Source of the DNA: Oceanihabitans sp. 2_MG-2023
GTDB taxonomy: Bacteria > Bacteroidota > Bacteroidia > Flavobacteriales > Flavobacteriaceae
NCBI RefSeq assembly: GCF_030547245.1
Contig: NZ_JAUOQT010000002.1
Span: forward strand, 372,001-436,000
Reading direction: 5' to 3'
DNA: 64,000 bases
The translations under genes and the position numbers were made by a program. Shown here one piece after another: positions 8,769 through 42,256 of this stretch (position 1 is its first letter; each line of letters starts with the position of its first letter). The notes under the pieces were generated by a model. It worked only from the letters and a program-made list of their open reading frames with translations. It did no database searches and was not told the origin of the DNA.

Positions 8769-8780
8769 GATCTGGAAAAC

Positions 8781-9419
8781 ATGAATTTTACTCCTGTAAA
8801 AACACCTTTAATTGTTCAGAAGCTATTTTCTAAGTATACATGGAAAATAGCTTCTAATACTAAAGAAATTTACCTAACTTTTGATGATGGCCCAACACCA
8901 GAAATAACAAACTGGGTTTTAGACCTATTGAAACAGTACAATGCAAAAGCAACTTTTTTTTGTATTGGAAACAATATAGAAAAGCATCCCGAAATATTTC
9001 AAGACATAATAACGCAAGGTCACACCATAGGAAACCACACACACAATCATGTAAAAGGTTGGAAGACTTCGGTTATAGATTATTTAGAAAATGTACAACT
9101 TGCTCAAAATGTAATTCATTCTAAAATAAAATCTAATACCAAATTATTTCGTCCTCCATACGGACAAATAACACCAAAACAAGGAACAGCACTAATAAAT
9201 ATTGGATATAAAATAATTATGTGGACTGTACTATCTATAGATTGGGACAGCTCTATTTCTAGAAAAACAAGCTTAAAAAATGTGATCACAAAAGCTAAAT
9301 CTGGAAATATTATTGTGTTTCATGATAGCATTAAAGCCTCCAAAAACATGCAATATGCATTGCCTAAGGTATTAGAACATTTTAGTAAAAAAGGATATCT
9401 TTTTAAAAGTATTTCTTAA
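8781..9419 (+). CDS. Polysaccharide deacetylase (NodB domain)
   Basis: Metal-dependent carbohydrate esterase 4 enzyme that would remove N- or O-acetyl groups from a glycan such as peptidoglycan or a surface polymer. At 212 residues it is a bare NodB domain. Visible motifs are TFDDGPTP (Asp35, Asp36; catalytic base and metal ligand), HTIGNHTHNH with the metal-binding His86-x3-His90, RPPYGQ and the late motif IIVFHDS. No clear signal peptide is seen, which is odd for an enzyme expected outside the cytoplasm. It lies 12 bases behind the GT117 gene. Its stop codon directly abuts that of the convergent thioredoxin-fold gene. Confidence 0.93.
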   Translation: MNFTPVKTPLIVQKLFSKYTWKIASNTKEIYLTFDDGPTPEITNWVLDLLKQYNAKATFFCIGNNIEKHPEIFQDIITQGHTIGNHTHNHVKGWKTSVIDYLENVQLAQNVIHSKIKSNTKLFRPPYGQITPKQGTALINIGYKIIMWTVLSIDWDSSISRKTSLKNVITKAKSGNIIVFHDSIKASKNMQYALPKVLEHFSKKGYLFKSIS

Positions 9420-15963: not shown

Positions 15964-18867
15964 ATGAAAAAACTATACTTTTTATTAAGCACCATACTAA
16001 TAACACAATTTGCAGTTTCTCAGCCTGCAAATGACGATTGCGCTAATGCAGAATTTATAAACGTTACAACCGATTTTACTGCTGTTAATTTTGAGATTAG
16101 TACCGCAGTAATTAATAACGAGGTTGGATGCGATGGAGATACAGCAGCTGATTTTGCAGATATTTGGTATGATTTCAATATGCCTATAAATGGAAATATA
16201 TTCATTGACGGAACAAGTTCGTGGAATCGTTTTGCACTTTATGATACTTGTGGCGGCACACAAATACAATGTGGTACTGCCGATGAACTGTATTCTGGTT
16301 TAACAGCGGGAACAAATTATAAATTACGTGTTTATAGAACAGCAGCTCTAGCAACCAACACTTCCTACTTAAACTTTTCAATAAAAGCATATCCAGAAGT
16401 AGCAAACGACGATTGCGCTTCTGCACAAACACTAACCGTTACTACAGAGGAAACTATTGTTAATTTTGAAATTGGCGGTGCAACCGTAAATAATGAAGAA
16501 GGGTGTACGGGAACGACAAGTGATTATATAGATATTTGGTATGATTTTAACATGCCTGTTAACGGAAACTTATTTATTGCAGGAACAACTTCATGGAATA
16601 GTTTCGCACTTTATGATACTTGTGGTGGCACACAAATACAATGTGGCTCTTCCGACGAACTGTATTCTGGTTTAACAGCGGGAACAAATTACAAATTACG
16701 CCTTTTTAGAACGGTTGCACTTGCAGACAACACCTACTTAAATTTTTCTATAAAAGCATACCCTGAAGTAGCAAACGACGATTGCGCTTCCGCAGAAAAT
16801 ATTACCGTAACGACAGAGGAAACTATTGTAGATTTTGAAATTGGTGGTGCAACCATAAATAATGAAGAAGGATGTGCTGGAACGACAAATGACTATGTAG
16901 ATCTTTGGTATGATTTTAACATGCCTGTTAACGGAAACGTATTTATTGCAGGAACTAGTACTTGGAACAACTTTGCATTATATGATACTTGTGGTGGTAC
17001 GCAAATACAATGTGGTTCTTCCGATGAACTGTATTCTGGTTTAACAGCGGGAACAAATTATAAATTACGCCTTTTTAGAACCGTTGCACTTGCAGACAAC
17101 ACCTACTTAAATTTTTCTATAAAAGCATACCCTGAAGCAACAAATGACGATTGTGCTTCTGCCGAAAACATTACCATAACCACAGAGGAAACTACTGTCG
17201 ATTTTGAAATTGGAGGGGCAACCATAAATAATGAAGAGGGATGTATTGGAACGACAAGTGACTATGTAGATATTTGGTACGATTTTAACATGCCTTTTAA
17301 CGGAAACGTATTTGTTGCAGGAGCAAGTACCTGGAACAACTTTGCTCTATATGATGCTTGTGGTGGTACACAAATACAATGTGGTTCTTCCGATGAATTA
17401 TATTCTAGTTTAACAGCGGGAACAAATTATAAATTACGCCTTTTTAGAACCGTTGCACTTGCAGACAATACTTACTTAAGTTTTTCTATAAAAGCATATC
17501 CGGAAGCATTAAACGACGATTGTGCTTCTGCACAAACATTAACCGTTACTACAGAGGAAACTACTGTCGATTTTGAAATTGCAGGGGCAACCATAAATAA
17601 TGAAGAAGGATGTACAGGAACAACAAATGACTATGTAGATATTTGGTATGATTTTACTATGCCAGTAAACGGGAATTTATATATTGAAGGAGCCATTAAC
17701 TGGAATAACTTTGCTCTATATGATGCTTGTGGTGGCACACAAATACATTGTGGATCTACTAACGAATTAATTGGAAACCTAAGCTCAGGAACAAACTACA
17801 AACTTCGTGTATTTAGAACTATAGCCAATGCAGAGAACAATTACTTAGCATTTACTATACAGGCATACGAAAATGTAACCAACGACGATTGCGCTTCCGC
17901 GGAAGACATTACCGTAACAACAACAGAAACTACCATAGATTTCGAAATTGGAGGAGCAACCATAAACAACGAAGTTGGTTGCAGTGGAACCGTAGATGAC
18001 TATGTAGATATTTGGTACAATTTCACCATGCCAGTAAACGGAAACCTTTATGTAGATGCAAGTATCAATTGGAACCAATTAGCGCTTTATGATTCTTGCG
18101 GAGGCACACAAATTCAATGTGATGATACCAACCAACTTTTTACAGGATTAAGCGCTACAGTAGATTATAAATTGAGACTTTTTAGAACAGAAAATAGCGC
18201 AGATAACACCTACCGAAGCTTTACTATTCAAGCATTCGAAATAATTAATAACGACGATTGCGCTTCTGCAGAAAACATTATTGTTACCGAAACACCAACT
18301 ACTGTAAACTTCGGTATTGGTGGCGCCACTATTAATAATGAAATAGGCTGCACTGGAACTACCGCTCAAGATTACGCAGATGTTTGGTATGATTTCACAA
18401 TGCCAATTGACGGTTATATACTTATTGACGGTAATATAGGATGGAATAACTTTGCACTTTATGATGCATGCAACGGAAATGAATTAGGTTGTTTTTCTAA
18501 TGAAGGTACTATTGGAGGATTAATAAACGGAACCGAATACAAGCTTCGTGTTTTTAGAACCTTAGCTCTTGCAGACAATGAATCTTATAAAAACTTTACC
18601 ATTCAAAGCACAAAAACATTAAGTACAAACATATCTTCTTTAGAGAATACTATACATGTATATCCTAATCCCGCAGATACTGTAATTACCATTTCTAATA
18701 TCAATAACACTTCTATTTCTTCTATTGAGTTATTTAATATGCTAGGAAAAAAAGTACTTAAAACAAAATCGGAAACGATAGATGTTAGTAGTTTTCAAAC
18801 AGGAATCTATCTACTAAAAATAGAAACCGAAAAAGGACAAGTAACCAAAAAAATTATGATTCAATAA
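15964..18867 (+). CDS. Secreted protein of seven 123-residue repeats with a type IX sorting tail
   Basis: A 967-residue exported protein. A signal peptide (1-19, ...QFAVSQ) is followed by seven tandem repeats that each open with NDDCA and contain WYDF-x-MP-x-NG, ALYDxCGG and YKLR(V/L)FRT. Each repeat therefore looks like a small beta-sandwich with conserved cysteines, probably similar to the bacterial pre-peptidase C-terminal or carbohydrate-binding folds. The C-terminus (about 893-967) is a type A type IX secretion sorting domain: VYPNPADTVITIS, LFNMLGKKVL, YLLKIETEKGQVTKKIMIQ. It is therefore probably surface-attached or secreted; binding or adhesion is an inference. No catalytic motif is seen. 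A bidirectional terminator follows. Confidence 0.9.
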   Translation: MKKLYFLLSTILITQFAVSQPANDDCANAEFINVTTDFTAVNFEISTAVINNEVGCDGDTAADFADIWYDFNMPINGNIFIDGTSSWNRFALYDTCGGTQIQCGTADELYSGLTAGTNYKLRVYRTAALATNTSYLNFSIKAYPEVANDDCASAQTLTVTTEETIVNFEIGGATVNNEEGCTGTTSDYIDIWYDFNMPVNGNLFIAGTTSWNSFALYDTCGGTQIQCGSSDELYSGLTAGTNYKLRLFRTVALADNTYLNFSIKAYPEVANDDCASAENITVTTEETIVDFEIGGATINNEEGCAGTTNDYVDLWYDFNMPVNGNVFIAGTSTWNNFALYDTCGGTQIQCGSSDELYSGLTAGTNYKLRLFRTVALADNTYLNFSIKAYPEATNDDCASAENITITTEETTVDFEIGGATINNEEGCIGTTSDYVDIWYDFNMPFNGNVFVAGASTWNNFALYDACGGTQIQCGSSDELYSSLTAGTNYKLRLFRTVALADNTYLSFSIKAYPEALNDDCASAQTLTVTTEETTVDFEIAGATINNEEGCTGTTNDYVDIWYDFTMPVNGNLYIEGAINWNNFALYDACGGTQIHCGSTNELIGNLSSGTNYKLRVFRTIANAENNYLAFTIQAYENVTNDDCASAEDITVTTTETTIDFEIGGATINNEVGCSGTVDDYVDIWYNFTMPVNGNLYVDASINWNQLALYDSCGGTQIQCDDTNQLFTGLSATVDYKLRLFRTENSADNTYRSFTIQAFEIINNDDCASAENIIVTETPTTVNFGIGGATINNEIGCTGTTAQDYADVWYDFTMPIDGYILIDGNIGWNNFALYDACNGNELGCFSNEGTIGGLINGTEYKLRVFRTLALADNESYKNFTIQSTKTLSTNISSLENTIHVYPNPADTVITISNINNTSISSIELFNMLGKKVLKTKSETIDVSSFQTGIYLLKIETEKGQVTKKIMIQ
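16030..18618 (+). repeat. Seven tandem 369-base coding repeats
   Basis: Unit starts, marked by the NDDC codons, are at 16030, 16405, 16774, 17143, 17512, 17881 and 18250. The first unit is 375 bases; units two to six are exactly 369 bases. Units two, three and four are nearly identical over long stretches at DNA level, which indicates recent duplication or gene conversion. Units one and seven are the most diverged. Confidence 0.93.
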
Positions 18868-25255: not shown

Positions 25256-28200
25256 ATGCTATATAATCCAACCTGTTTTTTATTAAAAATTACAAAAAAA
25301 ATCAAATTTACATTTTTTTTATGTTTAGTTGGTATATTTACTCACGCTCAAAATTTAACATTTAAACATTTAGGTTTAAAGGAAGGCTTGCCCCAAGAAA
25401 CTATTCTTTGCTTAACTCAAGACCAAAAAGGGTTTTACTGGCTTGGCACTTCGGATGGCATCGTACGTTTTGATGGTCATGATTTTTACATTCCTCAACC
25501 AGACACAAATTCAGGACTAGATATTGCAGGATATAGAATTGGTGCCATATTAGCAAAAGATAAAAACATATATATTGGTACAGGACAAAATGGACTAGTA
25601 GTGTATAATATTAATGAGGAGTCTACCACACAACTCCTAGATCCAGATAGTAACTGTACAAGAATTATTAAACATGACTCTATAATACTAGCTGCTTTTT
25701 ACAATAAAGGTGTAGCAGTAATTACCAGTGGAAAATCGAAATTCATACCATTTAACATAGAAAACCCAAAAGAAATTACAGGGCTTTCTATTTTAAACAA
25801 TACCGTTTATTTGAGCACAAAAAATGGCGATATTTATAGTTTTTCATCTAATAACATCTTAGAGAATGAAACTATTAAACTGAATAAAATAGCCAAAACC
25901 AACGATCCCATAACAAATATTGAAATACTAGATCAGCGCCTTTTTGTTTATACCACCAATGGCATTCTAACTCTAAACAGCACCAATAATACCGTTAAAA
26001 AAATACCAAGTTCTGACTCTAGCATTTCATTAGATCTTAATATTAATACCATAAAAAAAATAAATAATATTTATTATATAGGATCTAACAATGGTCTAAT
26101 TACTGCATATCTAGTAGATGAAAAATTTCAAATAATTAATCAATATAAAGCGAATAAAAAAGATAATTTAAACACAGTATCTTTCGATAATATTTATGCA
26201 TTACACGCAGATAATAAAGGAAACTTAATCATTGGTAGTTTTAATTTAGAAATGACATCGACTACTAAAGATGAAGTTTTTAAAAACCCAACTAATTTAT
26301 TTAACGTTAACGACCCATCTGTATTTGCCGTAATAGATACGAAGAATTATTTGTTTACTGCAACTTCAAGCGGGCTTGTTATTTCAGATAATAAAGACCT
26401 ATCAAAATTCAAAACATTCCCTAGTTATAGAGCAAGAGGCTTTGTAAAAGATCATTTAAATAATTTATGGATTGCTACTGGTAAAGGCGCATTTATAATC
26501 AATCTCGATACCATAAACCTCGAAAACCCTAACTTTATTGAACTACCTTCTAAAACAGGAAATGCGTCGCATTTACCATCAAACAACATTAGGAGTATTT
26601 ATAAAGATTCTGCTAATACAATTTGGGTAACATCCTATAGCGATGGGTTTAGTAAATTTATTGGAAATGTTAAAAATAACTCATTCGAATTTATCAACTA
26701 TAACACCGACCAATTCCCTTCTCGCTTAACCATATCAATGATAGAAGACAGCTATGGAATGTATTGGATGACTACTCAAAAAGGGCTTAGTTCTTTTAAT
26801 TTCAATTCGGGTAATTTAAACCTTTTAAAAAATTATGATGAATCTAATGGTTTAGCAACAAGAGGTGTATTGAGTGCTTTTGAAGACAGTAGCAAAACAC
26901 TCTGGATTGCAACAAGAAAAGGCTTAAGTAAATATAATAGAAAAAGAGATGAATTCACTTCTTTTGGTAAACGCGACGGATTAAGCAATACATTTATTTA
27001 TAACATTAACGAAGACGACCTTGGCAACTTATGGCTATCTACCAATGGAGGTCTTTTTAGATTTAATAAGAGTACAAAGGAATTTACAAATTACAATCCT
27101 AAAGATGGTGTACAAAGTACGGAGTTTAATCTTGGTGCTGTTTATAAAAACAAAAACAATGGTTTTCTATATTTTGGTGGTATTAATGGCGTAAATATCT
27201 TTGATCCAAAGCAAATCTATAAACTAGATAAAGAAGGACAACTTAACTTTACACAATTAAAAATAAAAGACAAAACAGTTTCTCCTAACGAATCTTCTGT
27301 AATATCTAGTAGCATTATTAATGCTAAGCATATTGAATTAAACCATAATGATTTCCCCATAAATTTAAGTTTTTCAGGGTTAGACTTTAGACCAAATAGC
27401 AATATAAAATACGTTTACAAACTTCTTCCTGATGATACAGATTGGAATGCTTTAGATTATAAAAACTATATTCAATTTATATCGCTGGCACCCAAAAAGT
27501 ACACCCTTCAAATACAAGGTAAATCGCGAAACGACTTATGGCAAAAACAGCCTTTACAACTCACCATTAATGTAAATCCACCATGGTATAAGAGTAATTT
27601 AGCATACCTAACTTATTTACTTTTCTTTTTAGGAATCGTTTATGCTTTTTATAAATTAAGTTTACAGCGTCAAATTGCGGGTCAAGAATCCATTCGTTTA
27701 CAGGAATTAGATAGTTTAAAATCGCGTTTTATCACCAACATTACGCACGAATTTAGAACACCTCTAACTATTATACTTGGCTATCTAGATAATTTAAAAG
27801 AGCAATTCTTAGAAAAAGACGATGTAACTACATCGCTAAACACCATAGAGCAAAACAGCAATAGTTTGCTTAATTTGGTCAATCAAATGTTAGATTTAGC
27901 TAAATTAGAAAAAGGGCAACTCAACATAAATCTTATCCAAAATGATATCGTTGCATTTTCATCACATATTACAAATAGTTTTTTAAGCATTGCTAAAGAC
28001 AAACAGATTAAACTGAATTTTAATTCCAATCCAGAAAAAATAATAATGGATTTTGATGCCGAAAAAATGCGTCAGATTCTCACCAACCTTATTTCTAATG
28101 CTTTAAAATTTTCACCTGAAGATTCCGAATTAAAAATTCACATTAATAAATTAAAAAATAGCACACTACAAATCCTGATTATGGACGAAGGTTATGGAAT

Positions 28201-29239
28201 TCCTGAAGAGGAACTACCTTTAATTTTTGATCGCTTTTTTCAAGTCGAGAACAACGAGCATAAAATATCGCAAGGCACAGGTATTGGATTGGCTTTAACA
28301 AAAGAATTGGTAGAACTATTTAAAGGCTCTATAAGTGTAAAATCTACATTAGGAACTGGAACTACATTTACAATTACACTACCAATAACAAATAATGTAG
28401 AAGAAAAATCAATTGAATTAAATAACAAGCAATTATCTATTGGCACAGTAGTACCGCAACTTAATGATATTATTGTTAATGACGACTCTAATACGGTGTT
28501 AATAATTGAAGACAATGTAGACATGGCTCGTTACATCGCCTCCTGTTTACAACCAGATTATAAAGTTAGTTTTGCGAAAAATGGTAAAGAAGGGTTAAAA
28601 CTTGCAGAAACAACCATACCAGATGTGGTAGTAACCGATGTCATGATGCCAATTATGGACGGATTTGAACTCACTCAAAAACTACAAGCCAATACTAAAA
28701 CCAACCACATCCCAATTATAATGTTAACCTCTAAAGCGATGCAAGAGGATAAATTGGAAGGTATTACAAGTGGTGTAGACGCATATTTAACCAAACCTTT
28801 TCAAAAAGAAGAATTACGACTTCGCATGAAAATGTTAATTACAAAACGAAAACAACTACAAAAAACCTATTCTATACCTACTATTTTAGAGCAAAAAGAA
28901 GAACAACCTAAACCTATAGATAAAAACATTATCTTCCTAAATAAAGCTATTGAAAGCGTTCATAAACATTTAGATAATTCAAATTTTGGAGCAGCCGAAT
29001 TAGCAAAATTTATGCTAATGAGCGACTCCCAACTCTATCGAAAACTAAAAGCAATTTCAAATACCAGTACAGCCATTTTTATTAGAAAAGTACGATTAGA
29101 AAAAGCTAAAGAATTACTAAAAACCTCCAATTTAACTGTTTCTGAAATAGCTTATGCCTCGGGGTTTAACGATCCCAATTGGTTTAGTAAAGCTTTTAAA
29201 GAAGAATTTCATAAAAGCCCAACAAGTTTCCGTAACTAA
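25256..29239 (+). CDS. Hybrid two-component system regulator with propeller sensor (HTCS)
   Basis: One-protein signalling chain of 1327 residues. An N-terminal signal/anchor (about 12-31) precedes two periplasmic seven-bladed propeller regions of regulator repeats (about 35-690; motifs such as LPQETILCLTQDQKGFYWLG and GTSDGIVRFDG). Next come a Y_Y_Y domain (about 695-775), a membrane helix (about 785-800), HisKA with ITHEFRTPLT (His831), HATPase (DEGYGIPEEELPLIFDRFFQ, GTGIGLALTKELV), a receiver domain with Asp1128 in VVTDVMMPIMDGFEL, and a C-terminal AraC helix-turn-helix (about 1230-1327). Such HTCS proteins normally sense glycan fragments and switch on polysaccharide utilisation loci. No susC/susD pair is present here, so the target is open. 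Confidence 0.95.
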   Translation: MLYNPTCFLLKITKKIKFTFFLCLVGIFTHAQNLTFKHLGLKEGLPQETILCLTQDQKGFYWLGTSDGIVRFDGHDFYIPQPDTNSGLDIAGYRIGAILAKDKNIYIGTGQNGLVVYNINEESTTQLLDPDSNCTRIIKHDSIILAAFYNKGVAVITSGKSKFIPFNIENPKEITGLSILNNTVYLSTKNGDIYSFSSNNILENETIKLNKIAKTNDPITNIEILDQRLFVYTTNGILTLNSTNNTVKKIPSSDSSISLDLNINTIKKINNIYYIGSNNGLITAYLVDEKFQIINQYKANKKDNLNTVSFDNIYALHADNKGNLIIGSFNLEMTSTTKDEVFKNPTNLFNVNDPSVFAVIDTKNYLFTATSSGLVISDNKDLSKFKTFPSYRARGFVKDHLNNLWIATGKGAFIINLDTINLENPNFIELPSKTGNASHLPSNNIRSIYKDSANTIWVTSYSDGFSKFIGNVKNNSFEFINYNTDQFPSRLTISMIEDSYGMYWMTTQKGLSSFNFNSGNLNLLKNYDESNGLATRGVLSAFEDSSKTLWIATRKGLSKYNRKRDEFTSFGKRDGLSNTFIYNINEDDLGNLWLSTNGGLFRFNKSTKEFTNYNPKDGVQSTEFNLGAVYKNKNNGFLYFGGINGVNIFDPKQIYKLDKEGQLNFTQLKIKDKTVSPNESSVISSSIINAKHIELNHNDFPINLSFSGLDFRPNSNIKYVYKLLPDDTDWNALDYKNYIQFISLAPKKYTLQIQGKSRNDLWQKQPLQLTINVNPPWYKSNLAYLTYLLFFLGIVYAFYKLSLQRQIAGQESIRLQELDSLKSRFITNITHEFRTPLTIILGYLDNLKEQFLEKDDVTTSLNTIEQNSNSLLNLVNQMLDLAKLEKGQLNINLIQNDIVAFSSHITNSFLSIAKDKQIKLNFNSNPEKIIMDFDAEKMRQILTNLISNALKFSPEDSELKIHINKLKNSTLQILIMDEGYGIPEEELPLIFDRFFQVENNEHKISQGTGIGLALTKELVELFKGSISVKSTLGTGTTFTITLPITNNVEEKSIELNNKQLSIGTVVPQLNDIIVNDDSNTVLIIEDNVDMARYIASCLQPDYKVSFAKNGKEGLKLAETTIPDVVVTDVMMPIMDGFELTQKLQANTKTNHIPIIMLTSKAMQEDKLEGITSGVDAYLTKPFQKEELRLRMKMLITKRKQLQKTYSIPTILEQKEEQPKPIDKNIIFLNKAIESVHKHLDNSNFGAAELAKFMLMSDSQLYRKLKAISNTSTAIFIRKVRLEKAKELLKTSNLTVSEIAYASGFNDPNWFSKAFKEEFHKSPTSFRN

Positions 29240-29622: not shown

Positions 29623-32600
29623 ATGAAAAAAACTACCTTATTATCCATTATTACTTTTTTATTATCTGTTATTGCTTTTGGACAAAACACTTACGTGCCA
29701 GACGATAATTTTGAACAGGCATTGATTGATTTAGGCTATGACTCTGGACCATTAAATGATTATGTACCAACTGCAAATATTAATACGGTTACCATTTTAA
29801 CTATACCATATAATAGTATTTCCGACCTAGCTGGTATAGAAGGCTTTGTAGCATTACAAGAATTAAGTTGTTTTGGAAATGTGATAACAAGTTTAGATAT
29901 AACTCAAAATACGGCTTTAACAATATTAAATTGTTACGGTAATAATTTAACAAATATAGATCTTAGTAATAATACTGCGTTAACACAATTATATTGTCAT
30001 TCAAATTATCTTACCAATTTAGACCTAAGCAACAATACGGCTTTAACTTATTTAAATTCTCGTAATAATAATTTAACAAGTTTAGATGTAAATAATAATA
30101 CGGCTTTACAAACTTTAGCTTGTGATAATAATTATTTAACAAGTTTAGATGTAAGTAATAATACCGCTTTAACAGATTTAAATTGTGCTAATAATATTTT
30201 AACAAATTTAAATGTTAAAAACAGTAATAATATAAATTTTACAGATTTTGATGCCACAAACAATCCAAGCTTAGCTTGTGTTGAAGTAGATGATGTAACC
30301 TACAGTACAACAAACTGGACAGATATTGATGCATCTAGTAGTTTTAGTACAGATTGCTATCCATTTACCTATATTCCTGATGATAATTTTGAACAAGTCT
30401 TAATAGATTTAGGGTATGATACTGCGCTTGACAATTATGTAATAACAGCAAATATTAATTTCCTTACTAATTTAAATGTAAATAATAAAAACATTGCAGA
30501 CCTAACTGGTATTGAAGATTTTGTAGCACTACAAGATTTACGTTGTTTTGGAAATGTACTAACAAGTTTAGACATAACTCATAATACGGCTTTAACTAAT
30601 TTAAGATGCGGATCAAACTTACTTACAGAATTAGATGTTAGCCAAAATCTACTACTAGAAGATTTACGTTGTGGTTCAAACCAAATAACACAATTAAATA
30701 TTCAATTTAATACAGCTTTAACAAGCTTAGTTTGCTCATCTAATCAACTTGAAAATTTAAATGCAGATAATGGAAACTACATTAATGTTTCTACTTTTAA
30801 TGCTACAAACAATCCAAATCTTATTTGTATACAAGTTGATAATGCTAGTTATAGTTCAACAAACTGGACAAGTATTGATACTCAAACCTCTTTTAGTGAA
30901 AACTGCCATTTTAATGAAACTTATGTTCCAGATGATAATTTTGAACAAGCCTTAATAAATTTAGGTTATGATACCGTACTTGATAATTATGTGCTTAATG
31001 CAAATATTAATACACTTACAACTTTAAATGTAAGTTATTATAACATTTCAAACCTTACTGGTATTAAAAGTTTTAGTGCTTTAACAGAATTAGATTGTAC
31101 CTATAATGATTTAACCAGTTTAGATCTTAGTAACTGTACGGCTTTAAAAAACCTATATTGTTATGAAAATGATTTAACCACTATAACCACTAGTAACTGT
31201 ACGGCTTTAAAAAAATTACATTGTTATAATAATAATTTAACAGCTTTAGATGTTAGTAACAATACGGCTTTACAAACTTTATATTGTTATAATAATGACT
31301 TAACCAGTTTAGATATTAGTACCAATACAGCTTTACAATATTTTTGGTGTTATAATAATAATTTAACAACTTTAGATGTTAGTAACAATACAGCTATAAC
31401 AGATTTTAATTGTTCTAGTAATAATTTAACAAGTTTAGATGTTACTAACAATACAGCTTTAGTAGCGTTAAGATGTTCTAGTAATAATTTAACAACTTTA
31501 GATATTAGTAATAATACAGCTTTAATAGCTTTAAGTTGTTCTAGTAATAATTTAACAAGATTACATGCTAGAAACGGAAATAATTTAAATTTCACAGAGT
31601 TCTTCGCCCAAAACAATACAAGTTTAACCTGTATTGAAGTAGACAATGCTATATGGAGTACTGCAAACTGGACAAGTATTGATGCTTCAAGTAGTTTTAG
31701 TTCCAACTGTCATTATGACGACACATACGTACCAGATGATAATTTTGAACAAGCCTTAATAGATTTAGGTTATGACTCTGGTGTGCTTGATGACTATGTA
31801 TCAACTTCTATTATAGAAACTATTACATCTTTAAACATCAATAATAAAAACATTACAGACTTAACTGGAATTGAAGATTTTGTGGTATTAACAAATTTAA
31901 ATTGTGCTGCTAATACTTTAACAAATTTAGATCTAAGCAATAATACCACATTAATAAATTTATTTTGTTACAATAATAATTTAACAAGCATAAATATTAG
32001 TAATAATACAGCTTTAACAAATTTACGTTGTTACAATAATAATTTAACAAGTATAGATATTAGCAACAACACAGCTTTAACAGATTTAAGGTGTTATAGC
32101 AATAATTTAACAAATTTAGATGTAAGCAACAATACAGCTTTAACAGATTTAAATTGTTATAGTAATGATTTAACCAATATAGATGTAAGCAATAATACAG
32201 CTTTAACAGATTTAAATTGCTCCTATAATGATTTACATTTTTTAGATGTAAAAAACGGGAACAATACAAATATTACATATTTTAATGCCACAAACAATCC
32301 AAATTTAACTTGTATTGAAGTAGATGACTCTATATGGAGTACTACAAACTGGACAAATATTGATGTTGCAACTAGTTTTAGTGAAGATTGTTTTACATCT
32401 ACTCTATATACCTTTATTCCAGATAATAACTTTGAACAAGTCTTAATAGATTTAGGTTATGATTCTTTTTTAGATAATTATGTGCTTACCGCAAATGTTG
32501 AAACACTTACTAATTTAGACGTAAATAATAAAAACATTTCAGACCTTACAGGTATTGAAGATTTTGTTGTATTAACAGATTTAAATTGTTCCAATAATAA

Positions 32601-34107
32601 TTTAACAAGTCTAGATATTAGTTACAATACAGCTTTAACAGATTTAAGTTGTTATGACAATGATTTAACAAGTTTAGATCTAAGTAACAATACGGCTTTA
32701 ACTTATTTAATTTGTTCCAATAATGATTTAACAAGTTTAAATGTTAGTAACAATAATGCTCTAATAAATTTAAGTTGTCATAGCAATAATTTAACAAGTT
32801 TAGATGTAAGTAACTGTATAGCTTTAACAGATTTAAACTGTTATGATAATAATTTAACAAGTTTAGATGTAAGCAACTGTATAGCTTTAACAGATTTAGA
32901 TTGTTATGATAATAATTTAATAAGTTTAGATCTAAGTAACTGTACGATTTTACAAGATTTAAACTGTTATGACAATAATTTAACAAGCTTAGATGTAAGC
33001 AACTGTATAGCTTTAACAGATTTAAATTGTTATAACAATAGTTTAGCAAGTTTAAATCTTAGTAATAATACTGCTTTACAAGATTTAAGTTGTTATAACA
33101 ACAGTTTAACAAGTTTAGATCTTAGTAATAATTTGGCGTTACAAGATTTAAGTTGTTCCGGTAATAATTTAACAAGTTTAGATCTTAGTAATAATACTGT
33201 TTTACAAGATTTAATTTGTGCTAATAATTATTTAACAAGCATAAATGTTAAAAACGGAAATAACACCAATATTTACAATTTTTATACATTAAACAATCCA
33301 GATTTAACCTGTATACAAGTAGATGATGCTACTTACAGTGCTACATACTGGTCAGATATTGATGCTCAAACTTCATTTAGTGAAGATTGTAATTATAATA
33401 CCGTTGTACTATCTCCAAAACTATTTTTACAAGGTGCTTATAACAATGGTATAATGCTAGATGATTTAAGAAGCAATAACTACCTACCAACAACAAGCCC
33501 TTATGTAGATGCTACAGTATGTTATTATTGTTACTATGGAGCTTTTGACATCACAGGAAATGATGCAATAATAGATTGGGTTTGGATAGAACTTAGAGAC
33601 GCATCAGATGTTTCAATAGTTGTTGCACAAACCTCTGCATTATTACAAGCAGATGGAGATGTTGTTGCTTTAGATGGTTTTACACCACTTACTATTCAAG
33701 CACCTTTTGGCGACTATTACATCATGCTTTCGCATCGCAATCATTTAGGTGTTCTTAGCGCAAACACCTACAACCTAAGTTTAACAAACACCTCTATTGA
33801 TTTTACCAATAATATAAACCTAATTACAGGAGGCACCAATGGTATTGCTACAATGAATGATGGCAAATTAGCTCTTTATGCAGGAGACTTTGATGGAGAT
33901 GGACAAATACAAAACTCAGACAAAAATAATGTAGAACCATTAAGAGGCACTAACGGATATACCAATGCAGATATAGACATGAATTCTGAAGTGCAAAACT
34001 CAGACATTCAAAACAAACTAAATCCAAATATTGGCAAAGGAGAACAATACACCAGCAGAGTAGCACTTAAACTGTTTGCAAAAAGGAATAAAACTATTAA
34101 TAAATAA
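29623..34107 (+). CDS. Giant secreted leucine-rich repeat protein with C-terminal dockerin-like module
   Basis: Exported protein of 1494 residues with a signal peptide (1-20, ...SVIAFGQ). Five modules start near residues 24, 250, 434, 702 and 931, each opening with a cap of the (Y/F)(V/I)PD(D/N)NFEQ(A/V)LI type. Each contains LRR units of about 21 residues (LTSLDVSNNTALTDLNCYDN type) and closes with a LTCIEVDD...W...ID...SF...C cap. Residues 1260-1415 form a beta-sandwich-like module (IDWVWIELRDASD; LSHRNHLGVLSA). Residues 1422-1472 hold two calcium-loop repeats, DFDGDGQIQNSD and DIDMNSEVQNSD, like type I dockerins. There is no type IX sorting domain. The next gene encodes a cohesin-like protein with one. 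LRRs suggest binding to protein or surface partners. Confidence 0.9.
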   Translation: MKKTTLLSIITFLLSVIAFGQNTYVPDDNFEQALIDLGYDSGPLNDYVPTANINTVTILTIPYNSISDLAGIEGFVALQELSCFGNVITSLDITQNTALTILNCYGNNLTNIDLSNNTALTQLYCHSNYLTNLDLSNNTALTYLNSRNNNLTSLDVNNNTALQTLACDNNYLTSLDVSNNTALTDLNCANNILTNLNVKNSNNINFTDFDATNNPSLACVEVDDVTYSTTNWTDIDASSSFSTDCYPFTYIPDDNFEQVLIDLGYDTALDNYVITANINFLTNLNVNNKNIADLTGIEDFVALQDLRCFGNVLTSLDITHNTALTNLRCGSNLLTELDVSQNLLLEDLRCGSNQITQLNIQFNTALTSLVCSSNQLENLNADNGNYINVSTFNATNNPNLICIQVDNASYSSTNWTSIDTQTSFSENCHFNETYVPDDNFEQALINLGYDTVLDNYVLNANINTLTTLNVSYYNISNLTGIKSFSALTELDCTYNDLTSLDLSNCTALKNLYCYENDLTTITTSNCTALKKLHCYNNNLTALDVSNNTALQTLYCYNNDLTSLDISTNTALQYFWCYNNNLTTLDVSNNTAITDFNCSSNNLTSLDVTNNTALVALRCSSNNLTTLDISNNTALIALSCSSNNLTRLHARNGNNLNFTEFFAQNNTSLTCIEVDNAIWSTANWTSIDASSSFSSNCHYDDTYVPDDNFEQALIDLGYDSGVLDDYVSTSIIETITSLNINNKNITDLTGIEDFVVLTNLNCAANTLTNLDLSNNTTLINLFCYNNNLTSINISNNTALTNLRCYNNNLTSIDISNNTALTDLRCYSNNLTNLDVSNNTALTDLNCYSNDLTNIDVSNNTALTDLNCSYNDLHFLDVKNGNNTNITYFNATNNPNLTCIEVDDSIWSTTNWTNIDVATSFSEDCFTSTLYTFIPDNNFEQVLIDLGYDSFLDNYVLTANVETLTNLDVNNKNISDLTGIEDFVVLTDLNCSNNNLTSLDISYNTALTDLSCYDNDLTSLDLSNNTALTYLICSNNDLTSLNVSNNNALINLSCHSNNLTSLDVSNCIALTDLNCYDNNLTSLDVSNCIALTDLDCYDNNLISLDLSNCTILQDLNCYDNNLTSLDVSNCIALTDLNCYNNSLASLNLSNNTALQDLSCYNNSLTSLDLSNNLALQDLSCSGNNLTSLDLSNNTVLQDLICANNYLTSINVKNGNNTNIYNFYTLNNPDLTCIQVDDATYSATYWSDIDAQTSFSEDCNYNTVVLSPKLFLQGAYNNGIMLDDLRSNNYLPTTSPYVDATVCYYCYYGAFDITGNDAIIDWVWIELRDASDVSIVVAQTSALLQADGDVVALDGFTPLTIQAPFGDYYIMLSHRNHLGVLSANTYNLSLTNTSIDFTNNINLITGGTNGIATMNDGKLALYAGDFDGDGQIQNSDKNNVEPLRGTNGYTNADIDMNSEVQNSDIQNKLNPNIGKGEQYTSRVALKLFAKRNKTINK
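29692..33390 (+). repeat. Five tandem LRR modules built from 63-base units
   Basis: Module starts lie at 29692, 30370, 30922, 31726 and 32413, with lengths of about 678, 552, 804, 687 and 978 bases. The length differences reflect different numbers of 21-codon units, with module 5 holding the most. The DNA is strongly repetitive (for example TTAACAAGTTTAGATGT recurs many times), which allows gain or loss of units by slippage and creates misleading long frames on the opposite strand. Confidence 0.92.
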
Positions 34108-34118
34108 AACCATAAATC

Positions 34119-34994
34119 ATGAAAAAAAAATACATCAAAAATTTAATTCTATTATTTACACTTTTTACAATCTGCTCTACCTATGCACAAGATATTAACT
34201 TCACGTTTGCTAATGCACAAAACACCAACGATGGAGTTGATGATTTTTACGAAGTAGATGTATTAATACAAACCATTAATGGCAGCGGGACATTTAAACT
34301 AGGTTCTGGACAATTATACTTTGTCTATAATACAGATGCTTTTGGAGAAAACGTGCAAGCTAATTCAAATATTGAAATCACACAACCAAATGCAGACGCA
34401 TACATCTGTGGTCAATATGTAGATGCTGCAGCTGCAGATATTTATGGCGTTTTTACAATTAATGACAACACAACATCTAGAGTCTCTTGGGCATTTTCGC
34501 AAGTTTTTAGTGCTTCTACTTTTGCAAATGATAATATTACCGAAACACCTCAAAAACTAATACACTTAAAACTTAAATATGAAGATGTTTCACAAAGCCC
34601 AATGCTTACATTTGAAGATGGCGATGTCTATGACGACCAATTTTATACGGCTTGTGGACCAACAGGCGGACCTTTTGAAGCTGCAAATTGCGGAGATTCT
34701 CCAGGAATTCAAATAGTAAATGATTATTACAATAGTACAGATGCAACACTTTCTACTAATCCTAATTTAAACAAAGAAAACAGTATCTCTATTTACCCAA
34801 ATCCAACCTCAGATGTTATTAATATTTCCACTTTAAATACAATTAAAAATATACAATTATTTGACTTTTTAGGGAAACGCATTTTAGAATCTAGTCAATC
34901 TCAAATAGATTTATCCTCATTTAACTCTGGATTATATATACTTAAAATACAAACAGATCAAGGAGAAATTACTAAAAAGGTAATAAAAAATTAA
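34119..34994 (+). CDS. Surface protein with a cohesin-like domain and type IX sorting tail
   Basis: A 291-residue exported protein with a signal peptide (1-23, ...CSTYAQ). Residues 24-195 look like an all-beta sandwich of the cohesin or carbohydrate-binding type: FYEVDVLIQTI, then GSGQLYFVYNTDAFGENV and QKLIHLKLKYED. The last 75 residues are a type A sorting domain (ISIYPNPTSDVINIS, LFDFLGKRIL, GLYILKIQTDQGEITKKVIKN). It begins 11 bases after the LRR-dockerin gene, so the two are co-expressed. It might anchor the LRR protein, which lacks its own sorting domain. The cohesin assignment rests on layout and context, not on a search. Confidence 0.8.
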   Translation: MKKKYIKNLILLFTLFTICSTYAQDINFTFANAQNTNDGVDDFYEVDVLIQTINGSGTFKLGSGQLYFVYNTDAFGENVQANSNIEITQPNADAYICGQYVDAAAADIYGVFTINDNTTSRVSWAFSQVFSASTFANDNITETPQKLIHLKLKYEDVSQSPMLTFEDGDVYDDQFYTACGPTGGPFEAANCGDSPGIQIVNDYYNSTDATLSTNPNLNKENSISIYPNPTSDVINISTLNTIKNIQLFDFLGKRILESSQSQIDLSSFNSGLYILKIQTDQGEITKKVIKN

Positions 34995-35020
34995 TCCAAA
35001 ATCCCTATTATATTCATTTT

Positions 35021-35066
35021 AAAAGAGGAACAGAAAAGCATCGCCTTATTTGTTCCTCTTTTTTTA
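35021..35066 (+). terminator. Terminator after the cohesin-like gene
   Basis: A perfect 12-bp stem AAAAGAGGAACA (35021-35032) / TGTTCCTCTTTT (35051-35062) with an 18-base loop is followed by more T residues. It separates the LRR/cohesin-like unit from polA. Confidence 0.8.
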
Positions 35067-38051: not shown

Positions 38052-39941
38052 ATGCTATTCGATGAAGTAAGCCTTGAACATATAGAAAAAGCAGTTAATC
38101 ATTTCAGGAAAAATGGTATACCACATGGACTTAGTACTTCAAAGTTTTATGATGTAGAAATTGATGGAACTTTATTCCCTCCTAAACCAATAATGGCGAT
38201 TGCAAATTATTTCGCTACAGGAAAATCTATTGACAATTACTTTTCTGGAGGCAAAGGTACTCCATGTTTTGCTGCATTTGAAAGATTAAAAATTAAAATA
38301 CTACCTAAATCAAATAATACAGATATGCCTAAAGCATATGAAATCCTAAATGAATTTCTAAAACAGGCAAAAACAGATAATTTAAAAACGAAGCATTACT
38401 TAAAAGCATATCGAAACACAAAAGTAAAAGTGAGTTTCGGTCAAGGAAATACAGCTAAAATTCCATGGGTTTCTTTTCTTAAAGACCCCTTTACGACTAG
38501 TGATGGAATTTACCCTGTTTATTTATATTACAAAAATATAAACAAGCTAATACTTGCTTATGGTAGAAGTGAAACAAATAAACCAATTGTTGAATGGAAC
38601 ATTAATAATAGTCTAAGTATCTCAGATTTTTTTAAAGAAAATAATTTTGAAAAACCAGACAGATATGGAGACTCTCATGTTTTCAAGGTTTATGATGTAA
38701 ATAACCTACCTGAAGAAAGAATATTAAATCAAGATTTAGACGTAATCATTGAAAAATATTCGAATTTAGGTGAGAAAAAAAACTTCCGAAACAATACATT
38801 TCTAACTAGGAATTTTGAAAAAGAAAAATTTGAAGAACATTGCAAAAACTCTGGTTTAAACTACAAACCAGACCTAATCACAAGATACATTGCATCCTTA
38901 GCAACAAAGCCTTTTGTTTTATTAAGTGGCTTATCAGGTTCAGGAAAAACAAAATTAGCACAAGCTTTTGCGCAATGGATTTGTGAAAGTGAAGAGCAAT
39001 ACACATTAATTCCAGTAGGAGCAGATTGGACGAATAGAGAACCTCTTTTAGGTTACCCAAATGCATTAAAAGACAATGAATATGTAAAGCCAGATAATGA
39101 TGCTTTAGATTTATTATTGCGAGCTAAAGATGATGAAACTAAACCTTATTTTTTAATTTTAGATGAAATGAACTTAAGTCATGTAGAGCGTTATTTTGCA
39201 GACTTTTTAAGCACCATGGAATCTAAAAACTCCATTCCATTACACAAAATTGATAACGAGGTTAACAAGATACCAAAAACAATAAAATTACCTAAAAACT
39301 TATTTATTGTTGGTACGGTGAACATAGATGAAACTACCTACATGTTTAGTCCAAAAGTATTGGATAGAGCAAATACTATTGAGTTTAGAGTTAGTGATAC
39401 AGACATTTCAGGTTTTCTTAAAAATCCAAATGACATAGATTTAGACAAGCTAAACGGTAAAGGTGCTAATATGGCTATAAACTTTGTAGATATTGCAAAG
39501 AGCAAAAAAGAAAAAGATGATAATACAACATACCAACTTAAGGATTCGCAACAAGGAATCATAAATGACCTTTTTAAAGAGTTGCAAAAATCTGGTGCAG
39601 AGTTTGGTTATAGAACAGCTTTTGAAATTTCTAAATTGATTTACAAACTAGAAGAGTTTGGGTTATCTAATGAGAATGACAAATTAGATATAGCCATTAT
39701 GCAAAAAATGCTACCAAAGCTTCATGGTTCGAGAACAAAACTTACTAGAACTCTTAAACCATTAGCAAAGCTATGTTTAGTAGATGTAAATGATAAATTT
39801 GATAAAGAATATTTTGAAAACTTTGGAAATATTGAATTTAAAAAAGATGTAAACATTAAGTACAAATTATCCTTTGAGAAGATTATGCGTATGTATAAAA
39901 ATGCCGTTGAAAATGGATTTGCAAGTTATGCTGAAGCTTAA
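38052..39941 (+). CDS. McrB-type AAA+ restriction motor with ScoMcrA-like head domain
   Basis: NTP-driven specificity and translocation subunit of a modification-dependent (type IV, McrBC) restriction system. Of 629 residues, 1-85 (PHGLSTSKFYDVEIDGTLFP, then PKPIMAIANYFATG) resemble the N-terminal head domain of ScoMcrA. Residues 90-220 resemble the MrcB N-terminal domain (DUF3578), with GQGNTAKIPWVSFL and GIYPVYLYY. The AAA+ domain (about 280-480) has Walker A GLSGSGKT (293-300), Walker B FLILDEMN (367-374) and GTVNIDET (near 423). The N-terminal domains should read the modified base; which one cannot be told. Five bases separate it from the nuclease gene. Confidence 0.9.
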   Translation: MLFDEVSLEHIEKAVNHFRKNGIPHGLSTSKFYDVEIDGTLFPPKPIMAIANYFATGKSIDNYFSGGKGTPCFAAFERLKIKILPKSNNTDMPKAYEILNEFLKQAKTDNLKTKHYLKAYRNTKVKVSFGQGNTAKIPWVSFLKDPFTTSDGIYPVYLYYKNINKLILAYGRSETNKPIVEWNINNSLSISDFFKENNFEKPDRYGDSHVFKVYDVNNLPEERILNQDLDVIIEKYSNLGEKKNFRNNTFLTRNFEKEKFEEHCKNSGLNYKPDLITRYIASLATKPFVLLSGLSGSGKTKLAQAFAQWICESEEQYTLIPVGADWTNREPLLGYPNALKDNEYVKPDNDALDLLLRAKDDETKPYFLILDEMNLSHVERYFADFLSTMESKNSIPLHKIDNEVNKIPKTIKLPKNLFIVGTVNIDETTYMFSPKVLDRANTIEFRVSDTDISGFLKNPNDIDLDKLNGKGANMAINFVDIAKSKKEKDDNTTYQLKDSQQGIINDLFKELQKSGAEFGYRTAFEISKLIYKLEEFGLSNENDKLDIAIMQKMLPKLHGSRTKLTRTLKPLAKLCLVDVNDKFDKEYFENFGNIEFKKDVNIKYKLSFEKIMRMYKNAVENGFASYAEA

Positions 39942-39946
39942 AATAA

Positions 39947-42256
39947 ATGGCCAAAGAAAAACACATATCTATCCCATTATCTAACATAGCAGAAGATTTA
40001 GAACTACATATTTTTCCTGAAGGAAAAAGTAAAGTTTTTAAAATTGAAGAAGCAGAGGCAATTGAATTTGGTGAATTTCCATATCAAATATTGGAAAGCC
40101 AAAGCTATGAATATGCGTTTAATAAAAAAGGTTATCGATTAAGTTGTGACAATAAAAGCATTGTAAAACAATCGCATAGAGAAAAATTCTCTGGCAAAAT
40201 TAATCCAAGTTTTTATGTGGGAACATTAAAACTCAACATTACACACAAAGAGAAAGAATTAAAAAAGAAACACACTTTTTTGGAAGTGAAAGCCACCAAA
40301 TTTAATTCTGATAATATAGATAAAAGTTATAGGGAGAATTATAGGTATATGCTTGAGGATATTACCGAAAAATGCACAGAACTTCTTCTACAAGTTAACT
40401 CCCCTATTCAACAACATTTTGAAACTGATTTTAACAAAAAAAGCGAAAGTCTATATCAACAATTTAGTTTTGTTAATTCTATAATTGGAAGCATAGAGTT
40501 TGAAGAAGCCATACAGAAAATAATAAGCTCACCAAAAACGGATTGGGCTGACAATGAGGAGCTAGCAGATATTAGAAGTGTAAAGAAATTTACAAGAACT
40601 ACGATCAAACAATTAGTAAGTAGAGGAAATAGAATATCATTACCTAATTCTCATCCCTTATTTGATAAACCACTGAAAAACTTACCATCACATATTATCA
40701 ATAACAGAAAAGTAGAAATTATTGATAATGCAGAAAACAGATTTATTAAACATGCACTACAGACTTATCTTCACTTTAGTGAAAAATGTTTAAATAAATT
40801 TAAAAACGAAACTCGCGCACACAAAGAAGCTAAATATTTAACGACTAAATTAGAATTGCACTTAAATAACTCGTTTTTCAAACAAGTTTCAAGACCAACA
40901 AGTTTAAATTTTAACAGTCCTGTTTTACAAAGAAAAAGTGGTTACAGAGAAATTCTAAAATCTTGGCTGAAGTTTGATTTAGCAGCAAAACTGACTTGGA
41001 CTGGTGGTGAAGATGTTTACAATGCTGGCAAAAGAGATATTTCTAAACTATATGAATATTGGTTGTTTTTTATGTTGTATGATTTATTTAAAAGTAAATT
41101 TCCAATAGAAAACATTGAACATGATGGTAATCCTTACCATAGTTTAATAAGGAAGACAGACAAGAGTTTAAATTTCATTATAAAATCTGGTACTCATACT
41201 GCTTTTAGTGGCATTAGTGAATTTGAAAACAGAAAGCTAAATGTTCGTTTTTCGTATAATCAAACTTTCAAAGGCGATACAAAACTATCTGAGAAGATAG
41301 AAGGAAGTTACACTAAAAACATGTATCCTGATTACACTTTGTCTTTTTGGCCTGCAGATACAACAGATGAAGAAGCAGAAGAAAAAGAGTTAATAGTTCA
41401 TATTCACTTTGATGCAAAATACAAAGTAAATTATTCTGGAGCTATTGATGATACCAGAGAAACAGAAGAAGAATCAGAAAGAAAAGGAGACTATAAGAAT
41501 GTAGATTTATTTAAAATGCATGCTTATAAAGATGCCATAAGAAGAACAGGAGGCGCATACATTCTCTATCCTGGAAATAGTAAAGGAGATATGAAACGAG
41601 GGTTTCATGAAATAATACCAGGTTTAGGCGCATTTGCTCTAAGACCTAGTCTAAATAATAATGGAATAGCAGAGCTAAGCGATTTTATTGATAAAATAAT
41701 TAGTCATCTTTTAAATAGAACATCTCAAAGAGAAAACATTGCTTCAAAAACTTACGACATTATTAAAGGCGGAAAACCAAAGCCCTTAAACGAACCACTT
41801 CCGGAATATATACATGGCAAAAAACTAATTCCTGATGATACTTATGTTCTAGTTGGTTATTGTAAATCAGAGGAACACCTAAAATGGATTGAAGATAAAT
41901 CTCTATATAATTTTAGAATGTATTCCAATAGAGGTGCATTAAAATTGAATAAGGAAACTTTAAACGCAAAATATTTATTACTTCACATGAAAGGGGATAC
42001 GTTTTCCTCAAGGCTATATACAATAAAGAAAACGGAATTTAGAGTAACGAATAAAGCTACATTAAATAGATTAAATTACCCAGGCCCTAAACAGAATAGC
42101 TATTTAGTTATTGGTATAGAAAAATGTATTGATAAAGAATTTACTAATATTTCATGGAATTTTAAAAAATTAAAAAACTATAAATCAGGAAGAGCTTCTG
42201 CAATACCTTTTACTGCTAACCTAACTGATTTTATTCAACAAAAAATAGTTGATTAA
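39947..42256 (+). CDS. McrC-type nuclease, DUF2357 and PD-(D/E)XK domains
   Basis: Predicted nuclease subunit partnering the McrB-type motor. Of 769 residues, the N-terminal half is a DUF2357-like region (about 60-330, with YRYMLEDITEKC and RFIKHALQTYLHF). The C-terminal part is a DUF524-type PD-(D/E)XK nuclease. Likely catalytic residues are Asp462 in YPDYTL, then Asp489 and Lys491 in HFDAKYKV. About 120 residues after the nuclease core (DTYVLVGYC..., FRMYSNRGA) may be an additional EVE-like or interaction domain, which is uncertain. The active site looks intact. It is translated with the preceding gene and ends at the right copy of the 9-base repeat. Confidence 0.88.
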   Translation: MAKEKHISIPLSNIAEDLELHIFPEGKSKVFKIEEAEAIEFGEFPYQILESQSYEYAFNKKGYRLSCDNKSIVKQSHREKFSGKINPSFYVGTLKLNITHKEKELKKKHTFLEVKATKFNSDNIDKSYRENYRYMLEDITEKCTELLLQVNSPIQQHFETDFNKKSESLYQQFSFVNSIIGSIEFEEAIQKIISSPKTDWADNEELADIRSVKKFTRTTIKQLVSRGNRISLPNSHPLFDKPLKNLPSHIINNRKVEIIDNAENRFIKHALQTYLHFSEKCLNKFKNETRAHKEAKYLTTKLELHLNNSFFKQVSRPTSLNFNSPVLQRKSGYREILKSWLKFDLAAKLTWTGGEDVYNAGKRDISKLYEYWLFFMLYDLFKSKFPIENIEHDGNPYHSLIRKTDKSLNFIIKSGTHTAFSGISEFENRKLNVRFSYNQTFKGDTKLSEKIEGSYTKNMYPDYTLSFWPADTTDEEAEEKELIVHIHFDAKYKVNYSGAIDDTRETEEESERKGDYKNVDLFKMHAYKDAIRRTGGAYILYPGNSKGDMKRGFHEIIPGLGAFALRPSLNNNGIAELSDFIDKIISHLLNRTSQRENIASKTYDIIKGGKPKPLNEPLPEYIHGKKLIPDDTYVLVGYCKSEEHLKWIEDKSLYNFRMYSNRGALKLNKETLNAKYLLLHMKGDTFSSRLYTIKKTEFRVTNKATLNRLNYPGPKQNSYLVIGIEKCIDKEFTNISWNFKKLKNYKSGRASAIPFTANLTDFIQQKIVD

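Follow-up and report, generated by a model that had tools for sequence, protein, structure and literature searches.

Gene content of the locus

The window analysed in this study is a stretch of 64,000 nucleotides from Oceanihabitans sp. 2_MG-2023 (Flavobacteriaceae; contig NZ_JAUOQT010000002.1, positions 372,001 to 436,000), whose genome of 3.69 Mb is designated G000. It contains two adjacent genes on the same strand, separated by 11 base pairs (bp). The first encodes a leucine-rich repeat (LRR) protein and the second a protein with a sorting tail for the type IX secretion system (T9SS). According to their proposed roles the two proteins are called cargo and anchor (or partner). Other genomes are given as G numbers and gene loci as L numbers; the coordinates of the features are compiled in Table 1.

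An earlier reading of the letters alone, here called the sequence-only reading, had described an LRR protein that ends in two calcium loops and lacks a T9SS tail, followed 11 bases downstream by a cohesin-like protein with such a tail, and had suggested that the one protein is held by the other. The described gene content was found again throughout. Both loops are present at the positions in Table 1, the LRR protein matches neither Por_Secre_tail nor CHU_C at E<=1, and the tail of the second protein matches Por_Secre_tail with an E-value of 8.2e-16 (58.5 bits, cut-off 27). By this C-terminal sorting domain the anchor is a predicted T9SS client. The repeats of the first protein are recognised by LRR_4 of Pfam (E 1.8e-35), and each of the five LRR blocks opens with a sequence like YVPDDNFEQ. 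A conserved module of about 165 amino acids (aa) in front of the loops adds to the earlier observation; in the window protein it has no Pfam match at E<=1. The gene pair is real and recurs beyond chance, as described below.

Table 1. Features of the gene pair and of the gene upstream of it, in positions of the window (ORF, open reading frame; HMM, hidden Markov model).
Feature	Position	Strand	Description or basis
LRR protein (putative cargo), 1494 aa	29623..34107	+	signal-peptide-like start, five LRR blocks, module, two calcium loops, no T9SS tail (ORF, Pfam)
Conserved ~165-aa module preceding the loops, FLQG..DWVWIELRDA..ALLQxDGDVV..HRNHLG	33394..33885	+	conservation in relatives
Calcium-type loop 1, DFDGDGQIQNSD, dockerin-like	33886..33921	+	
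Calcium-type loop 2, DIDMNSEVQNSD, 28 residues past loop 1	33970..34005	+	
Partner (putative anchor), 291 aa	34119..34994	+	ORF, Pfam
Signal-peptide-like start of the anchor, 23 residues	34119..34187	+	by eye; corresponding stretch missing from natural fusions
Predicted cohesin-fold domain, anchor residues 25-209	34191..34745	+	cohA HMM match, AlphaFold2, Foldseek
T9SS type A sorting tail (Por_Secre_tail / TIGR04183)	34791..34991	+	Pfam; Foldseek match to T9SS substrate 8glk
Hybrid two-component regulator (Reg_prop, Y_Y_Y, HisKA, HATPase_c, Response_reg, HTH_18)	25256..29239	+	383 bp upstream of the pair

The conserved module and the calcium-type loops

The relatives of the window protein comprise 150 distinct complete module proteins, 84 with loops of type A and 66 with loops of type B. 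For these counts module matches of fewer than 100 residues had been dropped earlier, two of 166 module ORFs were dropped due to an open 3' end, and the remainder was thinned to distinct proteins by the last 150 residues (loci up to L134).

One loop served to define type A; two loops of 12 residues are found in all 84 proteins of this type, which rules out chance loops. Their spacing is 28 residues in 72 proteins and 29 residues in 12. The layout is that of a type I dockerin, two tandem calcium loops each with a helix after it; the helices (251-261 and 279-286) are seen with low confidence in the model of the fusion L079 described below. The loop search demanded D at position 1, D or E at position 12 and residue sets at positions 3, 8 and 10. 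Position 12 is D throughout and never E, and the free position 5 holds only N, D or S across all type A loops. At position 10, one of those with a demanded set, N occurs in 77 and 78 of the 84 proteins (first and second loop), and S or T is found at position 11 in 59 and 72. Most type A loops read DxDxNGQ[IV]QN[ST]D, twice, while type B loops carry an insert, for example QYSGTTPD or RYLGPNND. In dockerins positions 10 and 11 contact the cohesin, and the symmetry of the two halves permits two binding orientations. By analogy, both properties may apply to the loops described here.

The best PDB match of a profile built from 25 loop segments is the ScaB dockerin, with a whole-sequence E-value of 0.0012 to which two stretches contribute, neither significant alone. 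Among the best 60 of 125 matches the lower ranks are held by cyanovirins, a hyalurononglucosaminidase, calmodulins and the dockerins of xylanase Y, CelS and endoglucanase SS, all with E-values above 0.003. The profile of module plus loops retrieved viral fusion proteins as chance matches, and the ScaB dockerin at E 0.59. Dockerin_1 of Pfam (PF00404) matches 23 of the 25 loop segments at E<=1, mostly weakly (best 2.3e-5). When four segments were rescanned, one lay above the cut-off (L081, 23.8 versus 22.9).

By a crude test, a signal-peptide-like start is present in 95 of the 108 module proteins with an own start, in comparison to 143 of 251 other ORFs, and a crude regular expression found no lipobox-like start among the 108. 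Module proteins reach a length of up to 2695 aa. Eleven cargo proteins (the window protein, L014, L015, L026, L079 and six more) were scanned with Pfam and contain LRR, HYR, PKD and BNR repeats, one M60 peptidase and no glycoside hydrolase. These repeat types would fit a role in adhesion or recognition.

Small module proteins of about 290-350 aa are encoded downstream of fibre-like genes at L018, L023, L026, L029, L136 and L137. Several of them have an N-terminal stretch similar to 'SIDSGGAS..YTIGEVNVQELS', and some of the fibre-like genes upstream have an S74-chaperone-like end, as judged by eye. Possibly this is a three-gene form, in which the small module protein links a fibre to the socket.

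The cohesin-like domain of the anchor

The fold that the sequence-only reading had proposed for the second protein was borne out by structure prediction. An AlphaFold2 model of the partner from 40 sequences reached a mean predicted local distance difference test score (pLDDT) of 92.4 and a predicted TM-score (pTM) of 0.70. In a Foldseek search of the PDB cohesins lead the matches, with the cohesin-FN3 construct of C. perfringens GH84C at rank 1 (E 2.1e-7). The 22 matches at E<=0.001 comprise 14 cohesins (TM-score by target length 0.28-0.61), three T9SS C-terminal domains and five other proteins. The model of a natural fusion of cargo and anchor, L079, again retrieved cohesins first and the GH84C cohesin on top; the OlpA cohesin-dockerin complex 3ul4 and the Archaeoglobus protein 2xdh are also among its matches.

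Two partner subtypes, A and B, are distinguished by the profiles cohA and cohB. Each of 49 ORFs contains one cohA domain (some represent the same gene twice and some are cut at locus ends), which rules out that a multi-cohesin scaffoldin is hidden in the long partners. In the long anchors L070, L077, L082 and L101 inspection by eye showed Ig-like repeats that separate the cohesin domain from the tail; in the Aquimarina anchors L070, L077 and L082 the repeat series resembles a stalk. In the own genome one other match, C23, covers much more than the tail (30% identity, residues 47-290). It is a T9SS protein without an adjoining module and was rejected.

Recurrence of the pair and agreement of the subtypes

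The own genome encodes two further proteins with module and loops. Each has a T9SS-tailed partner downstream, 274 aa long at a distance of 37 bp in one case and 269 aa long at 19 bp in the other. One of these cargo proteins carries BspA-type LRRs and the other short GGNGDGFDNDDLL repeats.

Within the family, the module is present in 18 of 149 genomes, partner subtype A in nine and subtype B in 13. The sequence-only reading had expected the two families to occur together, and they do: a partner was found in all 18 module-bearing genomes in comparison to two of the 131 without module. The first of these figures is to some extent built in: 15 of the 18 genomes supplied rows to the partner profiles A4 and A10, and only G079, G113 and G085 were found without giving a row. 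The near absence of the partner in the module-less genomes (129 of 131) is not built in. The two module-less genomes with a partner are G070, which has a clear cohA protein, and G062, for which the match is weak and partial (E 8.4e-8, end of the profile only).

The arrangement of the genes also recurs. An ORF with T9SS tail lies within 100 bp after 47 of 147 module proteins (the 150 without three fusions), but after only three of 301 other ORFs of at least 250 aa, a baseline taken from the same loci and not from whole genomes. For 61 module proteins an ORF matching the cohA or cohB profile lies within 600 bp on the same strand, with a median gap of 31 bp. In these adjacent pairs loop type and partner subtype always agree: 38 are A-A, 23 are B-B and none is mismatched.

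A scan of named genomes yielded 583 pattern matches, of which 565 were confirmed as relatives. The best 80 of these 565, which represent 76 distinct loci, belong to Aquimarina, Tenacibaculum, Kordia, Winogradskyella, Bizionia, Dokdonia, Lacinutrix and other genera, and also to Saprospiraceae, Chlorobiota and metagenome-assembled genomes of Bacteroidia.

Natural fusions

Three ORFs (L079, L090 and L065, the last being open at its 5' end) encode all four parts in a single chain: the module, the two loops, the cohesin domain and the T9SS tail. These are also the only three of the 150 module proteins that have a T9SS tail, which indicates that the tail comes through the cohesin part; the other 147 have none. 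As far as can be seen by eye, the signal peptide of the anchor is missing in all three, and simple read-through is thereby ruled out.

The fusions also bear on the alternative that module and loops form another kind of export signal, in which case the partner would be a helper and not an anchor. A conserved module at the C-terminus, the site of T9SS signals, would to that extent suit such a function. However, the partner has a full T9SS tail and a predicted cohesin fold of its own, module and T9SS tail occur together in the fusions, and the loops match dockerins. We consider this explanation very improbable.

Module proteins in single genomes and across the phylum

In G096, a genome of 99% completeness, the codon pattern for HRNHLG has 34 matches (not each confirmed as a module) in comparison to one in the control, while one cohA and three cohB genes were detected. 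The number of modules in this genome is estimated at about 33, against four detected partners. Of 24 distinct module proteins examined from it two adjoin cohB, one of type A adjoins cohA and 21 adjoin neither. The loop regions of these 21 share 64-76% identity with the cohB-adjacent pair and at most 48% with those of any other genome. Judged by this similarity, one socket type may serve dozens of cargo proteins in G096; more diverged sockets may also have been missed. At L127-L134 of the same genome large module genes alternate with regulator-like genes. Seven neighbour genes were scanned and include TPR proteins, a 7TMR-DISM protein and a Reg_prop/Y_Y_Y protein; the LuxR-type GerE profile matches three of the seven, one above its cut-off and two below it.

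Phylum-wide the module was found in 52 of 395 genomes. The 19 best loci besides the own one (L136-L154) were examined, four from the same family and 15 from outside. According to the HMM the next gene on the same strand is T9SS-tailed in ten of the 15 loci outside and in one of the four inside the family. All ten outside-family partners pass the Por_Secre_tail cut-off of Pfam, and none of them matches Pfam cohesin at E<=1.

Pfam cohesin lies above its cut-off in only two of 16 genomes searched, G162 and G436 (in the set of 14 control genomes there are matches in two, one of them above the cut-off). In the distant genome G162 such Pfam-level cohesins cluster with the module and with T9SS-type tails, and a module protein and a partner occur together (L155, 3283-13353). 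A protein of 1854 aa has a cohesin and a T9SS tail, and one of 450 aa has cohesin, module and loops in an adaptor-like arrangement. Between their genes lies one for 257 aa, with a cohesin match of 23.3 (cut-off 24.1) and, by eye, a T9SS-type tail.

Proposed mechanism and alternatives

Gene order, domain content, the predicted cohesin fold, the dockerin-type loops, co-occurrence, subtype agreement and natural fusions point to a T9SS-anchored cohesin and a dockerin-bearing LRR cargo that probably make up a two-part surface display cassette. The anchor would cross the outer membrane by the T9SS and be held at the surface by its C-terminal tail. The cargo would enter the periplasm by its signal-peptide-like start, and its duplicated-loop dockerin, loaded with calcium, would plug into the N-terminal cohesin of the anchor. 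Since the cargo has no T9SS tail, it would most likely bind the anchor in the periplasm and be carried out with it as a piggyback passenger, or else reach the surface by another route and dock there. The proposed cassette recurs in the Bacteroidota with differing cargo. According to a review the T9SS moves folded proteins (PMC9251779), and export of a ready-made complex would therefore be possible. A search of the literature on type IX secretion and piggyback transport showed no report of such co-export among the papers listed.

In a variant without co-export the LRR protein is exported independently, by another route, by vesicles or by lysis, and docks on the displayed anchor. Known cohesin-dockerin systems assemble outside the cell, and many module genes of G096 do not adjoin an anchor gene; both suit this variant. 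On the other hand, a protein with a Sec signal only would stop in the periplasm of a Gram-negative cell; 147 of the 150 module proteins are without T9SS tail, and a lipobox-like start is absent from all 108. We regard docking from outside as plausible but on the whole doubtful.

Several observations weigh against the proposed display cassette. Besides the partly built-in partner count, for 86 of the 147 module proteins no ORF matching cohA or cohB lies within 600 bp, some of them being cut by locus ends. Of these 86, 25 adjoin another module gene, eight a T9SS ORF of neither profile and 53 neither. The eight include L121 and L042, with gaps of 39 and 75 bp; the subtype B alignment took 18 of 20 neighbours, without these two, which differed too much, and in addition L015. 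The subtype agreement may stem in part from joint inheritance, but both subtypes coexist in G000 and in G096. The fold evidence covers the subtype A partner and the fusion L079. Between the partner profiles of subtypes B and A no similarity was found (probability 0.3%), and the B profile matched only unrelated chains in the PDB.

Standard profiles do not recognise the window's socket or plug either. At E<=1 no sequence among the 40 aligned partners has a match to Pfam cohesin (PF00963), at E<=10 G000 has none, and the partner profile matches no PDB sequence at E<=10. As modelled, the subtype A socket is a cohesin by predicted fold and not by sequence profile. The loop segment of the window protein has no Pfam match, and Dockerin_1 at E<=1 also matches in nine of the 14 control genomes, in two of them above the cut-off, so that single weak Dockerin_1 matches count little. 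In the L079 model, whose loop part is covered by 15 of 50 alignment rows, the loop region is of low confidence (block means 46-57), the pTM is 0.51 and no confident interface is seen. The missing interface neither supports nor excludes binding on the basis of this model. Finally, G070 encodes a cohA protein with T9SS tail (L122, 6045-7433), and no module was detected in that genome. This protein may be an orphan socket or a socket for another kind of plug.

Some of these points would equally suit two co-transcribed, extracellular proteins that do not bind each other. The role of the loops would then be limited to stabilising the LRR protein at its C-terminus, and the ligand of the cohesin-like domain would be a glycan or another molecule. 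Cohesins are akin to some carbohydrate-binding beta sandwiches, and the L079 model without interface and the window loops without Pfam dockerin match agree with this. Nevertheless it appears unlikely to us, considering that both halves resemble the halves of one known complex, that they co-occur in genomes, that their subtypes agree in 61 of 61 pairs and that they are fused in three ORFs.

If cargo and anchor indeed form a display cassette, plug-and-socket display would be widespread in the phylum and apart from cellulose, and easily overlooked, given a socket that has diverged beyond the reach of the standard profile. This would account for the arrival of a class of secreted proteins without T9SS tail at the surface, and as a two-gene system the pair would make the carriage of passengers by the T9SS directly testable. 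The matching loop and socket subtypes might serve as new orthogonal protein clips. A wider proposal is a widespread and hitherto overlooked Bacteroidota system for the export of preassembled non-covalent complexes by the T9SS, with a tailed cohesin carrier that brings a tail-less dockerin cargo across the outer membrane. In some genomes one type of socket would take up dozens of cargo proteins, several of them encoded beside regulator-like genes, so that the surface could be changed by switching cargo genes. This is conceivable, though in our estimate it falls somewhat short of an even chance.

Relation to known systems

The pair is best read as a T9SS-anchored display pair of the cohesin-dockerin type, a principle known before. 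Judged by its sequences it is not a cellulosome, with one cohesin-like domain per anchor and no glycoside hydrolase in the 11 scanned cargo proteins. The cellulosome-like principle suggested by the sequence-only reading therefore holds as far as plug and socket are concerned and fails beyond that, as a single cohesin-like domain per anchor was seen in the family of the window.

With cellulosome pairs and the OlpA-type single-cohesin surface anchors the system shares a C-terminal duplicated-loop plug and a socket of predicted cohesin fold on a putative surface anchor. One socket type for many cargo proteins, as it may occur in G096, is a further likeness. The known pairs have an S-layer-type anchor in place of the T9SS tail. 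LRR and other non-hydrolase cargo, the module of about 165 aa before the loops and sockets beyond the Pfam cohesin profile are also peculiar to the pairs described here. Non-cellulosomal cohesins and dockerins were reportedly treated by Peer et al. in 2009. Cohesins of this kind occur in C. perfringens glycoside hydrolases, and that of GH84C ranks first in both of our structural searches. To our knowledge neither the C. perfringens nor the Archaeoglobus cohesins have a T9SS anchor or such a paired cassette. T9SS type A surface proteins resemble the anchor by their tail; the cargo differs from them in having none, and might be termed a second-hand T9SS client.

In the literature searched, the cellulosome-like system of Candidatus Stygibacter (Cloacimonadota) is the closest. 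Its authors infer that dockerin enzymes are bound to a cohesin protein whose conserved C-terminal domain attaches it to the cell surface, for which a T9SS review is cited (PMC8542988). They describe a scaffoldin of 3755 aa with tandem cohesins and carbohydrate-binding modules, and as cargo GH18 and GH57 glycoside hydrolases and peptidases (PMC8542988). In contrast, the anchors found here carry a single cohesin and lie in adjacent gene pairs, and one of the 11 scanned cargo proteins has an enzyme domain, the M60 peptidase.

We also looked for earlier descriptions of the system under cohesin or dockerin together with T9SS, Bacteroidetes, flavobacterial LRR proteins and the host genera, and found none among the open-literature entries listed. 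Cohesins and dockerins are stated to be lacking in the Bacteroidetes of one study (PMC5831590), and neither a dockerin nor a scaffoldin is said to belong to the machinery of C. hutchinsonii or S. myxococcoides (PMC6247017). The same absence is stated in a capybara gut study (PMC8810776) and for Fibrobacter (PMC6851124).

Other features of the window

The hybrid two-component regulator upstream is possibly the regulator of the LRR and anchor genes. A promoter scan gave 60 promoter-like sites versus 39.6 expected. The terminator scan listed no terminator on the + strand near 35000; a long-looped inverted repeat with a run of T was noticed by eye at about 35020-35065. A second candidate pair at 5460-9419 turned out to be a TMEM260-like gene with a polysaccharide deacetylase gene 12 bp later, and is unrelated to the display pair. 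A T9SS protein of 967 aa with seven GBD_T9SS_assoc (galactose-binding) stretches is encoded at 15964-18867. Two neighbouring ORFs at 38052-42256 resemble, by eye alone, a restriction pair of the McrBC type.

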